A stretch of 36,951 nt of DNA. Origin: Candidatus Kaiserbacteria bacterium RIFCSPHIGHO2_12_FULL_53_13 (GTDB lineage Bacteria > Patescibacteriota > Minisyncoccia > Phycocordibacterales > UBA2100). Positions 7,145 to 14,999 of this stretch are shown one piece after another. Position 1 is the first letter of the stretch, and the number at the start of each line of letters is the position of its first letter. A model generated the notes under the pieces. That model saw only the letters and a program-made list of their open reading frames with translations, was not told the DNA's origin and made no database searches. The DNA is taken from assembly GCA_001781555.1 (NCBI GenBank), contig MFLP01000006.1:1-36951 (forward strand), read 5' to 3'. A program made the position numbers and the translations under genes.

Positions 7145-9430
7145 ATGACGCCGCACACGTTCAGAGTAAAAGGAATGCATTGTGCTTCGTGTGCGAGCAT
7201 TATCGAGAAGACGCTTAAAAAGGTAGGAGGTGTACATACTGTGGAGGTGAACTACGGAACAGAAACGGCGAAGATAGCGTTCGACGAGCATGCGACGCAC
7301 GCGCACGCGCTTTCCGAAAAGATAAAGCCGCTCGGCTACTCGCTCGTTGTGCCTACGGCAGAATCCATGGGCATGTCAGAAGACGAGCATGCCGCCCATC
7401 TTGGACTCGGCCAATCAAAAGCAGAGAAGCTCGCGGAAATTGCCGACATGAAATGGAAAGTTATTTCCGCCATACCGCTCACCGTGTTTAGCGCTTTTGT
7501 TTTAGGCTGGGAGATTTTTGCTCAATTCAACATAAGCCCAGTCGTTCCGTATTTCTGGAAAGAATTTTTTCACCATCTTCTGCCGCTCATGGCGACGTAC
7601 ATGCTCTTTGTCGTCGGCAAGCCCTATCTGCTCGGTTTTTACCGTTTTCTCCGCTACGGCAAGGCAAACATGGACACGCTCATCGGATTAGGCACTTCCG
7701 TTGCCTATCTCTACAGTTTTGCCGTTTCTGCATTTGAAGAAACGCTTCGCCCCTTCATTAATGTTGAGCAGTCATATTATGACGTGACCATCATCGTCGT
7801 AACATTCATCGCGCTCGGGAAATATCTTGAAGCGCGCTCCAAGCTGAAGACGGGTGACGCGATAGAAAAGCTACTCAATCTGCAGGCAAAGACGGCGCTC
7901 GTTTTGCGAGATGGAAAGGAAATGGAAATTCCGGTGGACCAAGTTGTCCACGGCGAGCTTATTATCGTCAAACCGGCAGGCAAAATTCCCGTTGACGGGA
8001 TTCTTGCCGAGGGTGGGTCCTTTGTAGATGAGTCGATGATCACCGGTGAGCCGATGCCGGTTAAAAAGGGAATCGGCGACGCGGTAGTCGCAGGGACGCT
8101 CAATACCAGCGGATCGTTCACATTTAAGGCGACGAAAGTCGGCTCTGAAACAATGCTTGCTCATATAGTGAAAATGGTTGAAGAGGCGCAGGGAAGCCGC
8201 GCCCCGATACAGGCGCTCGCGGACAAGATATCGTCTGTATTTGTACCCGTTGTGCTGGTTCTTGCGCTCTTGTCGCTCGGCGCGTGGCTTGTCATAGGGT
8301 CTCAATATCTCGGATTTTCTCAGGCGCTCTCGTTCGGATTAGTGTCATTCGTGGGCATTCTCGTGATTGCGTGCCCGTGCGCCTTGGGACTTGCGACGCC
8401 GACGGCGATCATCGTGGGCGTTGGAAAGGGTGCAAAGGAGGGGATTCTCGTCAAAGATGCGGCTACGCTTGAGAAACTGCATAGGGTAAATGTAGTTGTC
8501 GCGGACAAGACCGGAACTATCACGAAAGGCAAACCGGAGCTCGTCTCACTCCAGAATCTCTCGAAGGAAAGCGATGATAAATTGGCGGCGACACTTGCAT
8601 CTCTTGAAAATAAATCCGAGCATCCTATTGCTCATGCAATTGTTTCCTATGCAAAAGAGAAGGGCATTGCGCTTTTGCCTGTTGAACAGTTTGAGGCGGT
8701 AAAAGGGAAAGGACTTACCGGCGTTATTGGCGGAGTGCGTTACTTCGTTGGCAGTGCAAAGCTTGCCCAAGAACATGGCGCGCCGCTCCAATCGCTTGAG
8801 AAAGATACCGCTGAAGGGAAAACTCCGGTCATTCTTGTTGCAGAAAATACAGTTCTTGCCGTGACGATGATCGCGGACCAAGTGAAACCAGAGGCAATCT
8901 CCGCAGTGAGAGATCTGCACGCGCTCGGAATTAAGGTAGTGATGCTGACGGGAGATGACAAGAATACGGCCGCGTTCATAGCGGCTCAAGTGGGGATCGA
9001 CGAAGTTGTCGCGGAAGTTCTGCCTGAAGACAAGTTGAAGAAAATAAAGGAATTTCAGGCGCAGGGCAAGGTCGTCGCGATGGCAGGGGACGGAGTCAAC
9101 GACGCGCCTGCATTAGCCCAGGCGGATGTCGGGATCGCCATGGCGACGGGGACGGATGTCGCCATTGAATCTGCTGGCATCACGCTTCTTCATGGGGACA
9201 TATCAAAGTTAGTGAAAGCAATCCGGCTTTCAAAAATGACAATGCGCGGCATCAAGCAGAACCTTTTCTGGGCCTTCATATACAATATTGTAGGCATCCC
9301 GCTTGCGAGCGGCGTTTTCTATCCGCTGTTCGGATGGCTTCTCTCGCCGGTGTTCGCAGGCTTTGCAATGGCATTCAGCAGTGTTAGCGTTGTATTGAAC
9401 TCACTGCGCCTGAAGACTAAGAATCTATGA
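7145..9430 (+). CDS. copA: Copper-translocating P1B-type ATPase with N-terminal HMA domain
   Basis: [72 protein letters not shown] and [17 protein letters not shown]-terminal motifs. Confidence 0.96.
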
Positions 9431-9846
9431 GATATAATATGTCATCCACTAAACAAATACTCGCGGCGCTCATACTCGCGGCGCTTCTCGTTATTGTTTT
9501 CTTTAGTTTTGCCACAATGACGCACATTGCGGACGGACGCATGCAGAGCAACTGCCCGTTCTCAACTATGGGAGCCCCGCTGTGCCCGCAGGACGTAGTC
9601 GCTGTCGCCGTTCACCACATATCCGCGTATCAATCGCTTCTGAACGCACCCTTGGTGCCCAGTGTCTCGATGTTCATTGTTGTTTTGCTCATGCTTGTCT
9701 ATGGAGCGTTCATATTTTTGGTTCGTTCGCCACTGCCAAAACCTTATCTCGTAAGGTACTTCTATAATTCCCCGCCGTCCTATTCCAGAAGTAGAGAAAT
9801 AACACGCTGGCTTTCGTTGTTTGAGCACAGTCCCTCTTTGCTCTAG
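9427..9846 (+). CDS. Small membrane protein with Cys/His/Met-rich extracytoplasmic loop (unknown)
   Basis: ATGA overlap with copA stop. Two TM helices flanking [35 protein letters not shown]. Alternative start at 9439 (MSSTKQ). Confidence 0.75.
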
Positions 9847-9937: not shown

Positions 9938-10456
9938 ATGAAATCAAAAACACTTATCAACATTGCTCTCCTCGTTCTTGTGATTGTCGGCCTCTTCGCG
10001 TGGGGCTATGCCGGAAGAGTCGGCACTACGGCCAGTGTTCAGGGCGCTTCCGGAGCCAGTGGGACCTCGAAAAGCGTCCTTACCGCTCCGGAAAACTTCT
10101 ATGATTTCGGGACGATCTCAATGAAGAACGGCAATGTGAGCAAGGAATTCCAGGTAAGCAACTCAACTGGCGAAGACATAACCATCTCTACAGTATTCAC
10201 TTCCTGCATGTGTACGCTCGCTTACATCGTTGGGGCGGATGGAAGCGCCAAAGGCCCGTTTGGCATGCCGGGCATGGGCTATGTTCCGCCGGCAGATGAA
10301 ACCATTCATGCGGGCGAGAGCCGCGTGGTCCGTGTCATTTATAACCCGAACGCTCACGGTCCGGCAGGTGTCGGGCGGATCGACAGGTTCGTGACCCTCA
10401 CGGATTCCAGAGGCGGCACGCTAGAGCTTGAAATAAAAGCTCTTGTAACACCCTGA
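9938..10456 (+). CDS. DUF1573 domain-containing secreted protein
   Basis: N-terminal signal anchor (MKSKTLINIALLVLVIVGLFAWGYAG) and ENFYDFGTISMKNGNVSKEFQVSNSTGEDITISTVFTSCMCTLAYI. Confidence 0.85.
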   Translation: MKSKTLINIALLVLVIVGLFAWGYAGRVGTTASVQGASGASGTSKSVLTAPENFYDFGTISMKNGNVSKEFQVSNSTGEDITISTVFTSCMCTLAYIVGADGSAKGPFGMPGMGYVPPADETIHAGESRVVRVIYNPNAHGPAGVGRIDRFVTLTDSRGGTLELEIKALVTP

Positions 10457-10457
10457 T

Positions 10458-11237
10458 ATGCGCCGGCTGATTGTCATTGCGAGCGTTATCGGTGCATTCA
10501 TTCTTGGGATTGTTGTCCTCAAATTCAGCCCCGCAACCTCAGCACTTATATGGAACATGAGCCAGGGCGGAGCATGGCTCTTGCCGCTCGTACTCATCTC
10601 ATCGCTCTTGGATAGCGTCCATCCGTGCTCGTTCTCCATTCTCCTCATCACTATAGCGTTCTTGTTCGGGTTGCAGATGACGCGGGAAAAAATCCTGCGG
10701 ATCGGAGGCGTGTACATCGCCGGCATCTTTGCGTCATACCTCCTCATCGGTCTCGGCCTTCTCAAAGTCCTACATCTCTTCAATACACCGCACTTCATGG
10801 GGAAGCTCGGCGCCTCGCTCCTAATTCTCTTCGGAATCATCAATCTCCTTAACAGGTTCTTTCCTGATATGCCGATCAAGCTCAAAATGCCGGGGATCGT
10901 GCACCGGCCGATGGCGGCGCTCTTGGAGAGAACATCCGTCGTGGCGGCATTCGGGCTCGGGATACTCGTCGGCATCTGCCAGTTCCCGTGCATGGGCGGG
11001 CCGTACCTCATGGTGATAGGGCTTCTGCGCGACAGCCAGACGTATCTGGCGGGATTCTGGTATCTGCTACTGTACAACCTCGTTCTCATCGTTCCCCTGG
11101 TGCTCGTCCTGTGGTTCTCCGCCGACAAGAGCGTGGTAGACAAGATGCAGGAGTGGAAGCGCGAAAATCTCCAGCGCGTCCGCCTGGTCGCGGGCACTGC
11201 CATGATAATTCTAGGTGCACTTATTCTCATCGTCTAA
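10458..11237 (+). CDS. CcdA/DsbD-like transmembrane thiol-redox protein
   Basis: LISSLLDSVHPCSFSILLITIAFLFG and GILVGICQFPCMGGPYLMVIGLL, paired Pro-Cys motifs in TM helices as in CcdA family. Confidence 0.85.
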   Translation: MRRLIVIASVIGAFILGIVVLKFSPATSALIWNMSQGGAWLLPLVLISSLLDSVHPCSFSILLITIAFLFGLQMTREKILRIGGVYIAGIFASYLLIGLGLLKVLHLFNTPHFMGKLGASLLILFGIINLLNRFFPDMPIKLKMPGIVHRPMAALLERTSVVAAFGLGILVGICQFPCMGGPYLMVIGLLRDSQTYLAGFWYLLLYNLVLIVPLVLVLWFSADKSVVDKMQEWKRENLQRVRLVAGTAMIILGALILIV

Positions 11238-11242
11238 AAGGT

Positions 11243-11689
11243 ATGCTCATTACTATCACCGTCATATCGGTCCTCATCGTCTCAGGAGCGGCGTGGCTCG
11301 CAAGCCGGATCCTGCCGTTTAAGGTTTGTCCGATCTGTGCCGGAGTGTTCCTCACGTGGACGGGACTCGTCGCCGCGCACCTCTTGGGCTACCAGATCAA
11401 CCTCGTAGTTCCCGCGCTCCTCATGGGCGGATCAGTCGTCGGTATCGCTTATCAGCTTGAGAAGAAATTCCGCGGCTCGGCAGGCACGCTTCTTCTCTGG
11501 AAAACGTTCTTTATTCCGGCTGGTTTCGCTGCCGCGTATAGTCTCCTCGCGCAACTGTGGACGGCGCTTATCTTGACGACGTTCTTTCTCTTCTTGATAA
11601 CGCTTCTGTTCTTGTCTTCAGGCGGCAGGCCGGGAGCGCGCGAAGAGACGGTCGGGAACATTGAGAAGAATATGGAAGATTGCTGCTGA
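11243..11689 (+). CDS. Hypothetical membrane protein with CPIC (CxxC) motif
   Basis: MLITITVISVLIVSGAAWLASRILPFKVCPICAGVFLTWTGLVAAHLL; several TM helices; C-terminal ...MEDCC. Start placed 5 nt after the CcdA-like stop. Confidence 0.75.
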   Translation: MLITITVISVLIVSGAAWLASRILPFKVCPICAGVFLTWTGLVAAHLLGYQINLVVPALLMGGSVVGIAYQLEKKFRGSAGTLLLWKTFFIPAGFAAAYSLLAQLWTALILTTFFLFLITLLFLSSGGRPGAREETVGNIEKNMEDCC

Positions 11690-11721: not shown

Positions 11722-12693
11722 ATGGAAACAAATACCCCAGTAGAAACGATAAGAGGGTCTATCCAAGAGTACGCGACTCCGGTGAGCATCGTGATCGCCG
11801 GGATTGCCATCGCGGTATCGATGTACGCAATTCAGGCGGAGCGCCCTGCGGGCGTCGTCTCTGACGCGGGCGCGCAAGTGCGGCTCGAGGAATCGGTTAT
11901 GCCCGCGTCCGGAGTCGTACTGCCTGTTGTGTGGGGTGATCTTGGCGCGCGACTTGTCGAATCCGGCGCGATCGATGCCGACAAGCTCCGGCAGATGTAC
12001 GAGTCCAGGGGGACATGGAACAAGGAATACGAGTGGCTCCTTGTCGGACGCGAAAATGGAAAGTTAACGATAACGAGAGAGAACTCGGGATATCTCCTGA
12101 ATCTGCTGTGGGCTTTCGGACTTGCCAACAAGAGTACAATTCTTGAGGATACATCAGAGATGATGAATCCGGGATATGGCGGTGCGGAGAACTTCGCATC
12201 AACAGGCGGATGGACAGTGGCAAAAGGCAATGCGATGGAACACTACAACATGCATGCGCTCGTGGAGCTGGCGCCAGAGCAGCAAGTGCTCGTTGACCGC
12301 GTGTCGCGGAACATCTACAGGCCGTGCTGCGGGAACTCTACGCATTTCCCGGATTGCAATCACGGAATGGCGATGCTCGGATTTCTGGAATTGATGGCCA
12401 GCCAGGGTGTCGGTGAAGAAGACATGTACAAAGCGGCCCTTGCGGTGAACTCGTATTGGTTCCCGGATACCTATCTCACAATTGCAGAATACATGCAAAA
12501 CAGAGGCATTAACTGGAAGAAAGTCTCGCCGCAAGAAATGCTGGGTGCCAATTATTCAAGTGCCGCGGGATTCCGGAATATCATGTCGCAGGTCGGCGCG
12601 ACTTCTAACGGTGGCAGTGGAAGCGGCTGTGGCGTAGAGGCCGGAGGAGCACCCGCTCCGCAACAGCGGCAGCAAAGCGGATGCGGCATATGA
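11722..12693 (+). CDS. Membrane-anchored extracytoplasmic protein of unknown family with CC-H-C-H/M motif
   Basis: N-terminal TM (TPVSIVIAGIAIAVSMYAIQ); YRPCCGNSTHFPDCNHGMAMLG motif; Gly/Cys tail GSGSGCGVEAGGAPAPQQRQQSGCGI. Confidence 0.8.
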   Translation: METNTPVETIRGSIQEYATPVSIVIAGIAIAVSMYAIQAERPAGVVSDAGAQVRLEESVMPASGVVLPVVWGDLGARLVESGAIDADKLRQMYESRGTWNKEYEWLLVGRENGKLTITRENSGYLLNLLWAFGLANKSTILEDTSEMMNPGYGGAENFASTGGWTVAKGNAMEHYNMHALVELAPEQQVLVDRVSRNIYRPCCGNSTHFPDCNHGMAMLGFLELMASQGVGEEDMYKAALAVNSYWFPDTYLTIAEYMQNRGINWKKVSPQEMLGANYSSAAGFRNIMSQVGATSNGGSGSGCGVEAGGAPAPQQRQQSGCGI

Positions 12694-12722: not shown

Positions 12723-13004
12723 ATGCATAACCACAACAATACAGACAACGGCCATGATAATCACAAGCACATGATGTGGATGATGCTCATCTGCTGCGCA
12801 TTGCCGCTCGTTATACTGCTTTTCGGCGGTGGCGCGTTGTTCTCTGACGGGTATCTCACGAAAGTTCTCATTGGTGCTTTTGCTGTCGCATGCATTTGGA
12901 TGATGTTCAAAAGGCACGGGAATCCTGACGAAAACAGCGCAACTAATGTGGCTGAAAAACTGGAGAAGGACACCGGGAATAAGCATGATAACTGTTGTCA
13001 TTAG
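12723..13004 (+). CDS. His-rich small membrane protein (DUF2933-like)
   Basis: MHNHNNTDNGHDNHKHMMWMMLICCALPLVILLF...KHDNCCH; two TM helices with His-rich N-terminus and CCH C-terminus. Confidence 0.7.
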   Translation: MHNHNNTDNGHDNHKHMMWMMLICCALPLVILLFGGGALFSDGYLTKVLIGAFAVACIWMMFKRHGNPDENSATNVAEKLEKDTGNKHDNCCH

Positions 13005-13565: not shown

Positions 13566-14597
13566 ATGACTAATTCAAATCAAAAGACATACATATTTCA
13601 CGTCCGCGGCATGCACTGCGACGCGTGCACGCTTCTCATTGAAGAGACTTTCAAGGAGTTGCCGTACGTTTCCCGCGTTCATGCGTCGCTTCCGAATCAT
13701 CAAGTGACTATCACGGGAAATTTCTCGGAGCCACTGGAATTAATCGCAGAAAAACTCACCGAACTGGTAAAAAGCCACGGATACACGGTCTCGTTGGAAA
13801 AATCACAGAAAAGTGCGGGGTGGGGGGATTTTGTGTACGCATTGCCGATTGCCCTCGTAACAATTGTTGGATTTTTCGCGCTTCAGAAGGCCGGTTTTGC
13901 TAATCTCATTACTTCCTCGAATGTCACGTATGGAACTGCATTCATTATCGGGCTCATCGCCTCTGTGTCCACATGTCTCGCCGTCGTCGGCGGCCTCGTC
14001 CTTTCTCTTTCGGCAAGTTCTGCAAAGGAAGGCGGCACGTGGCGGACGCAGACCATGTTCCACGTTGGCAGATTAGGCGGATTTTTCGTGCTTGGCGGCG
14101 CTATCGGTGCCGTCGGGAGCTCTCTTCATCTCGGACTCAATGCGAACATCGTGCTTGGCATCGTTGTCGCGCTCGTGATGCTTATCCTCGGCATAAATCT
14201 GCTCGACGTATTTCATTTCACGAAGCGGCTACAGTTCACGCTCCCAAAATGGATATCGCGGCATGTCGTGCGCGGGAGCCGGCATGACCACTATCTGGCG
14301 CCGCTTCTTGTCGGCGTCGGGACTTTCTTTCTGCCTTGCGGATTTACTCAGTCAATGCAGCTTTACGCGCTTACGACGGGGAGCTTCATGAAAGGCGCAC
14401 TTACGATGACCGTCTTTGCACTCGGCACTCTACCAGTGCTCGCACTCCTATCCTTCGGTTCTCTCAATATTGCACACAAATCGTGGAAGGGAATATTCTT
14501 TAAAACTGCCGGGATTATCGTCATAGCACTCGCGCTGCTGAATCTCGCAAATGCTCTTGCAACGGCGGGGATCATCTCCCCTGTATTCAATATCTGA
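13566..14597 (+). CDS. HMA domain fused to sulfite exporter TauE/SafE-type membrane domain
   Basis: FHVRGMHCDACTLLIEETFKELPYVSRVHASLPNHQVTI (HMA) followed by 6+ TM helices with VSTCLAVVGGLVLSLSA and FFLPCGFTQSMQLYAL. Confidence 0.88.
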   Translation: MTNSNQKTYIFHVRGMHCDACTLLIEETFKELPYVSRVHASLPNHQVTITGNFSEPLELIAEKLTELVKSHGYTVSLEKSQKSAGWGDFVYALPIALVTIVGFFALQKAGFANLITSSNVTYGTAFIIGLIASVSTCLAVVGGLVLSLSASSAKEGGTWRTQTMFHVGRLGGFFVLGGAIGAVGSSLHLGLNANIVLGIVVALVMLILGINLLDVFHFTKRLQFTLPKWISRHVVRGSRHDHYLAPLLVGVGTFFLPCGFTQSMQLYALTTGSFMKGALTMTVFALGTLPVLALLSFGSLNIAHKSWKGIFFKTAGIIVIALALLNLANALATAGIISPVFNI

Positions 14598-14600
14598 CCT

Positions 14601-14999
14601 ATGAACAAAGCAATTTTTATCTCTATCGGCATAAGCGCACTCTTGGTAGGAGGAATGTTCTGGTTCGTCAGCGGAAATATCGATGTTGGTGCGAATGCGG
14701 CAGGGGACACATCGGCCGTTTCTATATCCGATGGCAAACAATTTATTGACGTGTCTGCAAAGGGCGGCTACTCCCCGCGCGTGATCCTCGCTAAGGCCGG
14801 CACGCCGACCATACTGCGCGTGAAAACGAGCGGGACTTTTGATTGCTCCGCGAGTCTCGTTATCCCGAAACTCTCATACCAGAAATTCCTCCAGCCGTCG
14901 GGAACTGAAGAAATCGCGATTTCTGCGGAACAAGCGCAGGGCACGATGCAGGGCTTATGCTCGATGGGAATGTACAATTTCCAGATAAAGTTCCAATAA
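14601..14999 (+). CDS. Cupredoxin-like domain protein
   Basis: Signal anchor plus GGYSPRVILAKAGTPTILRVKTSGTFDCSASLVIPKLSYQKFLQPSGTEEIAI...GLCSMGMYNFQIKF. Confidence 0.82.
   Translation: MNKAIFISIGISALLVGGMFWFVSGNIDVGANAAGDTSAVSISDGKQFIDVSAKGGYSPRVILAKAGTPTILRVKTSGTFDCSASLVIPKLSYQKFLQPSGTEEIAISAEQAQGTMQGLCSMGMYNFQIKFQ

Follow-up and report, generated by a model that had tools for sequence, protein, structure and literature searches.

In the ScsB/ScsC system, the DsbD-like partner maintains ScsC, a thiol protein of the periplasm, in its reduced state, and ScsC binds Cu(I) (PMC8900818). CopG has a thioredoxin-like fold with a CxCC motif and binds a four-copper cluster (PMC7558416). The published fold of CcmH is a three-helix bundle that carries LRCPKC between helices 1 and 2 (PMC3884852). 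Here we analysed the protein encoded at 11722..12693 on the + strand of the window, a 36,951-nucleotide stretch of Candidatus Kaiserbacteria DNA (contig MFLP01000006.1), and compared it with these systems. A literature search found nothing on this family of anchored Cys-Cys/Cys-His proteins. The probable task of the window protein, outside the cell membrane, is the handling of electrons, copper, or both. Our preferred reading, held with about even confidence, is a membrane-anchored extracytoplasmic thiol relay in the style of ScsB/ScsC, probably also Cu(I)-binding, rather than a plain metallochaperone.

The gene has an ATG start and encodes 323 aa. An N-terminal membrane segment spans about residues 17-39 (11770..11838) within a modelled helix 6-39 that has a hydrophobic core, and the predicted CcmH-like three-helix domain, supported by Foldseek (2hl7/2kw0) and hhalign, spans about residues 183-260 (12268..12501). 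Within this domain lies the motif YRPCCGNSTHFPDCNHGMAMLG (Y199-G220, 12316..12381), which contains C202 (12325-12327), C203 (12328-12330), C212 (12355-12357), and H214 (12361-12363). The flexible Gly/Gln tail (12595..12690) contains C303 and C322, ends in C-G-I, and has pLDDT <50 over residues 295-323; its two GCG units are at residues 302-304 and 321-323. The ORF, translation, and model thus bear out the motif, the two GCG units, and the single N-terminal TM described in the earlier note. A 20-mer with mean hydropathy >1.6 is present in 87% of family members. Because there is one N-terminal helix, and the copies from Burkholderiaceae carry Tat-type signals in both sequences, the CcmH-like domain is predicted to be extracytoplasmic; the positive-inside rule fits 63/117 members and does not settle the topology alone.

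No Pfam or NCBIfam family matches the protein, and neither it nor the family alignment has a significant sequence match in the PDB (a single chance-level match, E 0.035), in agreement with the earlier statement that the family is unrecognised. Searching 60 related genomes yielded 14 copies including the window's own, the 13 close relatives sharing 46-65% identity with the window protein. A scan of GTDB genomes with the family alignment confirmed at least 558 relatives, and in an even sample of the phylum 35/380 Patescibacteria genomes (about 9%) carry the family. These numbers place the observation far beyond chance, and the protein belongs to a real, unnamed, and widespread family. No relative was found among the viral contigs searched. 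The named loci among the best 80 belong to Patescibacteria (Kaiserbacteria, Nomurabacteria, Zambryskibacteria, Yanofskybacteria, and others). One copy (L023, JAGVGM010000243.1) comes from a MAG labelled Thermodesulfovibrionia; it lies on a 6.9 kb contig with a typical Patescibacteria operon, only 1/198 genomes of the labelled phylum is positive, and it is probably a mis-binned Patescibacteria contig rather than a true Nitrospirota copy. Full-length copies, annotated as hypothetical proteins, were found in copper/mercury islands on plasmids of Burkholderia contaminans and Paraburkholderia fungorum (L182:13857-14804 and L181:13848-14762), with 38-39% identity (E 2e-34, 2e-29). The tree places them together with three fusion proteins from Patescibacteria (100/99; the bootstrap is not fully settled).

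The residues R200, C202, C203, N205, D211, C212, H214, G215, W246, and F247 are invariant in 122 aligned distinct domain sequences. Loss of the motif residues in homologues had been named beforehand as a refutation of the metal-binding proposal, and all three Cys and the His are retained throughout. The two motif Met, which had been counted as part of the cluster, do not share this conservation: at position 216 some members have S, V, or L in place of M, and at position 218 many have A. H174 was considered as a further ligand and rejected; it is invariant in close relatives, but the divergent fused copies and those from Burkholderiaceae lack it. At the C-terminus, the last three residues are C-x-x in 118/124 members with a stop, and a Cys falls within the last five residues in 122/124, against a Cys content of 1.4%. 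A second tail Cys is present in 45/124 members, the window protein among them. The two GCG units are therefore real in the window protein but represent one variant only, and the rule for the tail is the single terminal C-x-x.

The idea of a relation to CcmH arose from the sequence, before the structural and profile comparisons, because both run from a helix through the Cys loop to a second helix, and from there through a short loop to a third. The full-length model is confident (mean pLDDT 87.5, core >90, tail disordered). Compared with the PDB by Foldseek, it matched P. aeruginosa CcmH (2hl7) at a probability of only 0.44, others reaching 0.02 or less, and we therefore modelled the domain on its own (residues 176-292, pLDDT 95.2). 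The isolated domain matched 2hl7 at 1.00 and E. coli CcmH (2kw0) at 0.89, with all others at 0.06 or less; TM-scores by target were 0.66 and 0.64, and the E-values were modest (0.22 and 1.2). No match was found among viral models. In the predicted model three helices form a bundle, and the Cys loop joins the first helix to the second. With hhalign, the full-length comparison gave too weak a signal, which improved after trimming to the domain and adding divergent members. The domain then scored 26.5 against CcmH (30.4 with CcmH variants), compared with maxima of 17.8 and 22.3 from 60 column shuffles per comparison; the score exceeded 60/60 shuffles, with a pairwise E of 4e-4 and a probability of only 34-65%, and the register placed RPCC on the CcmH LRCxxC. 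Together, these results predict a CcmH-like three-helix thiol-oxidoreductase fold for the motif domain. The protein is nevertheless not a CcmH by membership: the predicted model matches the fold, but PF03918 (CcmH) matched neither the window protein nor 14 relatives at E up to 1, and the LRCxxC active site is missing, all 122 members having RPCC with vicinal Cys. Separately, several Nitrospirota loci (L144-L150, L152) encode CcmH-related domains with LACPCECPMVLEDCHMSCG, some in frames >400 aa, which represent an unusual CcmH variant.

The gene lies in a copper island, and its surroundings agree with the earlier description. All the following genes are on the + strand. Upstream are a CopA-type P-type ATPase with an N-terminal HMA domain (GMHCASC) and a CPC motif (7145..9430), an unnamed 139-aa membrane protein with CPFS...LCP and HH and no family above cut-off (9427..9846), a DUF1573 protein with SCMCT (CxC; 9938..10456, Pfam E 1.5e-9), a CcdA/DsbD-like membrane protein with HPC and CQFPC (10458..11237, sub-threshold SfLAP and DsbD_TM matches), and, directly adjacent, a CPIC membrane protein with a C-terminal EDCC tail (11243..11689). 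Immediately downstream is a small His-rich membrane protein ending in NCCH (12723..13004; 8/9 relatives end in CC(H)), and a cupredoxin-like anchored protein follows at 14601..14999 (Cupredoxin_1, E 3.3e-7). Between them, an HMA domain fused to a DsbD_2 membrane domain (13566..14597, Pfam E 6.6e-12 and 1.5e-31) adds a second link between metal and thiol functions to the island. A DUF5676 gene is also nearby.

This operon is conserved. We clustered the neighbours at 80 loci with flanks, the best 80 of the at least 558 relatives. A P-type ATPase and a CcdA/DsbD-like membrane protein each recur at 66/80 loci, DUF1573 and the 139-aa membrane protein each at 56/80, and CsoR at 40/80; in 7 loci the place of the 139-aa protein is taken by what is likely a divergent form of it (c21). 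Usually the 139-aa protein comes first, followed by DUF1573 or a Redoxin-family protein, the CcdA-like protein, a CC-tail protein, the family member, and copper genes. DUF1573, present at 52 loci, and the Redoxin-family protein, present at 10, exclude each other upstream, no locus having both (p=2.8e-8), and DUF411/CopG-type proteins are found at four of the remaining loci (L072, L079, L083, L091). The slot directly upstream of the family member holds one of three proteins without a recognised family, each ending in an acidic stretch and CC: the CPIC membrane protein, the soluble c9 (for example L024:9403-9936), and the 80-aa c44 (L086:9617-9856). The CC end is present in 24/25 c9, 21/22 CPIC, and 4/4 c44 proteins (49/51 together), and CPIC and c9 never co-occur (p=6e-4). 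One tail type thus appears on three apparently unrelated scaffolds.

Divergent family members occur as fusions, with CPVC-type membrane domains, with rhodanese domains, and in one case with an entire P-type ATPase. Six of them (L162, L163, L164, L165, L167, L170) have an N-terminal multi-pass membrane domain with the CPVC-type motif and no Pfam match above cut-off. The ATPase fusion, together with the invariant three Cys and His, CopA in 66/80 loci, CsoR in 40/80, and the cupredoxin and His-rich neighbours, would fit a true Cu(I) metallochaperone or store, whose copper site, built from C202, C203, C212, H214, and the tail Cys, would exchange the metal between CopA and client proteins (the cupredoxin, for example), with no redox job. 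Gene neighbourhood alone does not separate redox from chaperone function. However, the fold match is to a thiol oxidoreductase, the neighbours that recur most steadily, apart from CopA, are redox proteins, and the two Met of the motif are not conserved. We regard the pure metallochaperone as rather unlikely; a CcmH-like fold inside a thiol-redox operon makes a redox relay at least as likely. Of the earlier proposal of a new extracytoplasmic metal-binding or metallochaperone protein, the predicted extracytoplasmic location and the copper link stand, but the fold is not new, being predicted as that of a CcmH-like thiol oxidoreductase.

The plasmid copies provide a second setting. The B. contaminans copy lies 70 bp downstream of a P-type ATPase and is surrounded by genes for CueR, CcdA, peroxiredoxin, TlpA, SCO, DUF411, PCYCGC, and multicopper oxidase, with c-type cytochromes also near; mer genes and DsrE-family genes lie near the P. 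fungorum copy. The latter genes and the rhodanese fusions would suit a thiol protein devoted to a non-copper task (disulfide repair, sulfur/persulfide handling, or mercury/arsenic handling) that shares the metal-resistance island by chance. This appears distinctly improbable, since the copper context is wide and repeated, with a P-type ATPase in most loci as well as CsoR, CueR, and DUF411. A role in cytochrome c maturation, as a CcmH-type factor of Patescibacteria, which the predicted CcmH fold, the CcdA-like neighbour, and the B. contaminans cytochromes might suggest, is very improbable, as a PF03918 search of the window's genome gave no match, the window protein has neither a Pfam match nor LRCxxC, and no ccm gene is among the recurrent neighbours of the 80 loci.

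We favour the thiol relay, with its likely Cu(I) site, because of the CcmH-like fold match by Foldseek and hhalign, the invariant Cys and His with the terminal C-x-x, and an operon with a CcdA/DsbD-like protein, DUF1573, and a P-type ATPase. It draws further support from the exclusion between DUF1573 and the Redoxin-family protein with DUF411 at four of the remaining loci, from the fusions to a P-type ATPase, rhodanese, and CPxC membrane domains, and from the Burkholderiaceae copies with their Tat-type signals and CueR, CcdA, TlpA, SCO, and multicopper oxidase neighbours. Counted against it are the CC rather than CxxC spacing, the modest Foldseek E-values for a kind of fold, the three-helix bundle, that is common, and the positive-inside fit in just 63/117 members.

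In the proposed mechanism, which fold and gene order suggest for both its redox and its copper steps, a CcmH-like three-helix thiol domain, predicted in fold and topology, would be anchored in the cell membrane and face outwards. The vicinal C202-C203 would form the working site; C212 and H214 would lie near this pair, where the following helix begins. The Cys on the floppy C-terminal tail may reach in, so that a disulfide is resolved or metal is handed over. Reducing power from the cytosol would be passed on by the CcdA/DsbD-like membrane protein encoded upstream, and the DUF1573, Redoxin-family, or DUF411 (CopG) protein would serve as an exchangeable extracytoplasmic partner. The reduced thiols could then maintain copper sites in the reduced state, hold Cu(I) beside CopA, or do both, like ScsB/ScsC in Gram-negative bacteria. 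More tentatively, and as a possibility that we consider somewhat doubtful, Patescibacteria may own a copper-redox relay distinct from Scs, Sco, and CopG, in which a CcdA-like protein would bring electrons from the cytosol across the membrane to a carrier with the CcmH fold. This carrier would reduce or receive copper beside CopA through its CC/C/H site and its swinging tail Cys, with apparently unrelated DCC-tail helpers. The analysis provides a predicted fold and a testable role for a family with hundreds of members and without a Pfam or NCBIfam entry in little-known bacteria. Should the proposal hold, copper handling would be a reuse of the CcmH thiol fold beyond cytochrome c maturation. Burkholderiaceae that can be cultured carry copies on plasmids, which opens the idea to laboratory tests.

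Among known systems, PCYCGC (PF13798) is likewise a Cys-rich exported protein and is encoded on the same B. contaminans copper plasmid as a family copy. Kinship with it is unsupported: hhalign scored 12.3 against a shuffled 95% level of 16.1, and the CYCGC motif is absent from the window protein. CcmH/NrfF (PF03918; PDB 2hl7, 2kw0) shares with the window protein the predicted three-helix bundle with a Cys site in the helix 1-2 loop, the single membrane anchor, the extracytoplasmic location (predicted here), and the link to CcdA/DsbD-type proteins. The window protein differs from it in having RPCC and DC-x-H instead of LRCxxC, with CC rather than CxxC spacing, a large extra N-terminal region, a C-terminal Cys tail, and a copper operon in place of cytochrome c genes. 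CopG/DUF411, the second analogy, is also a Cys-cluster protein linked to copA, and DUF411 occurs in the same operon at four loci, but it combines a thioredoxin-like fold with CxCC and has no sequence relation to the window protein. The closest working analogy is ScsB/ScsC, in which a DsbD-like protein feeds an extracytoplasmic thiol protein that aids in copper handling; the DsbD/CcdA-like membrane protein is present alongside the family in 66/80 loci. ScsC is a thioredoxin fold with CXXC, whereas the window family has a predicted CcmH-like fold with a vicinal CC.
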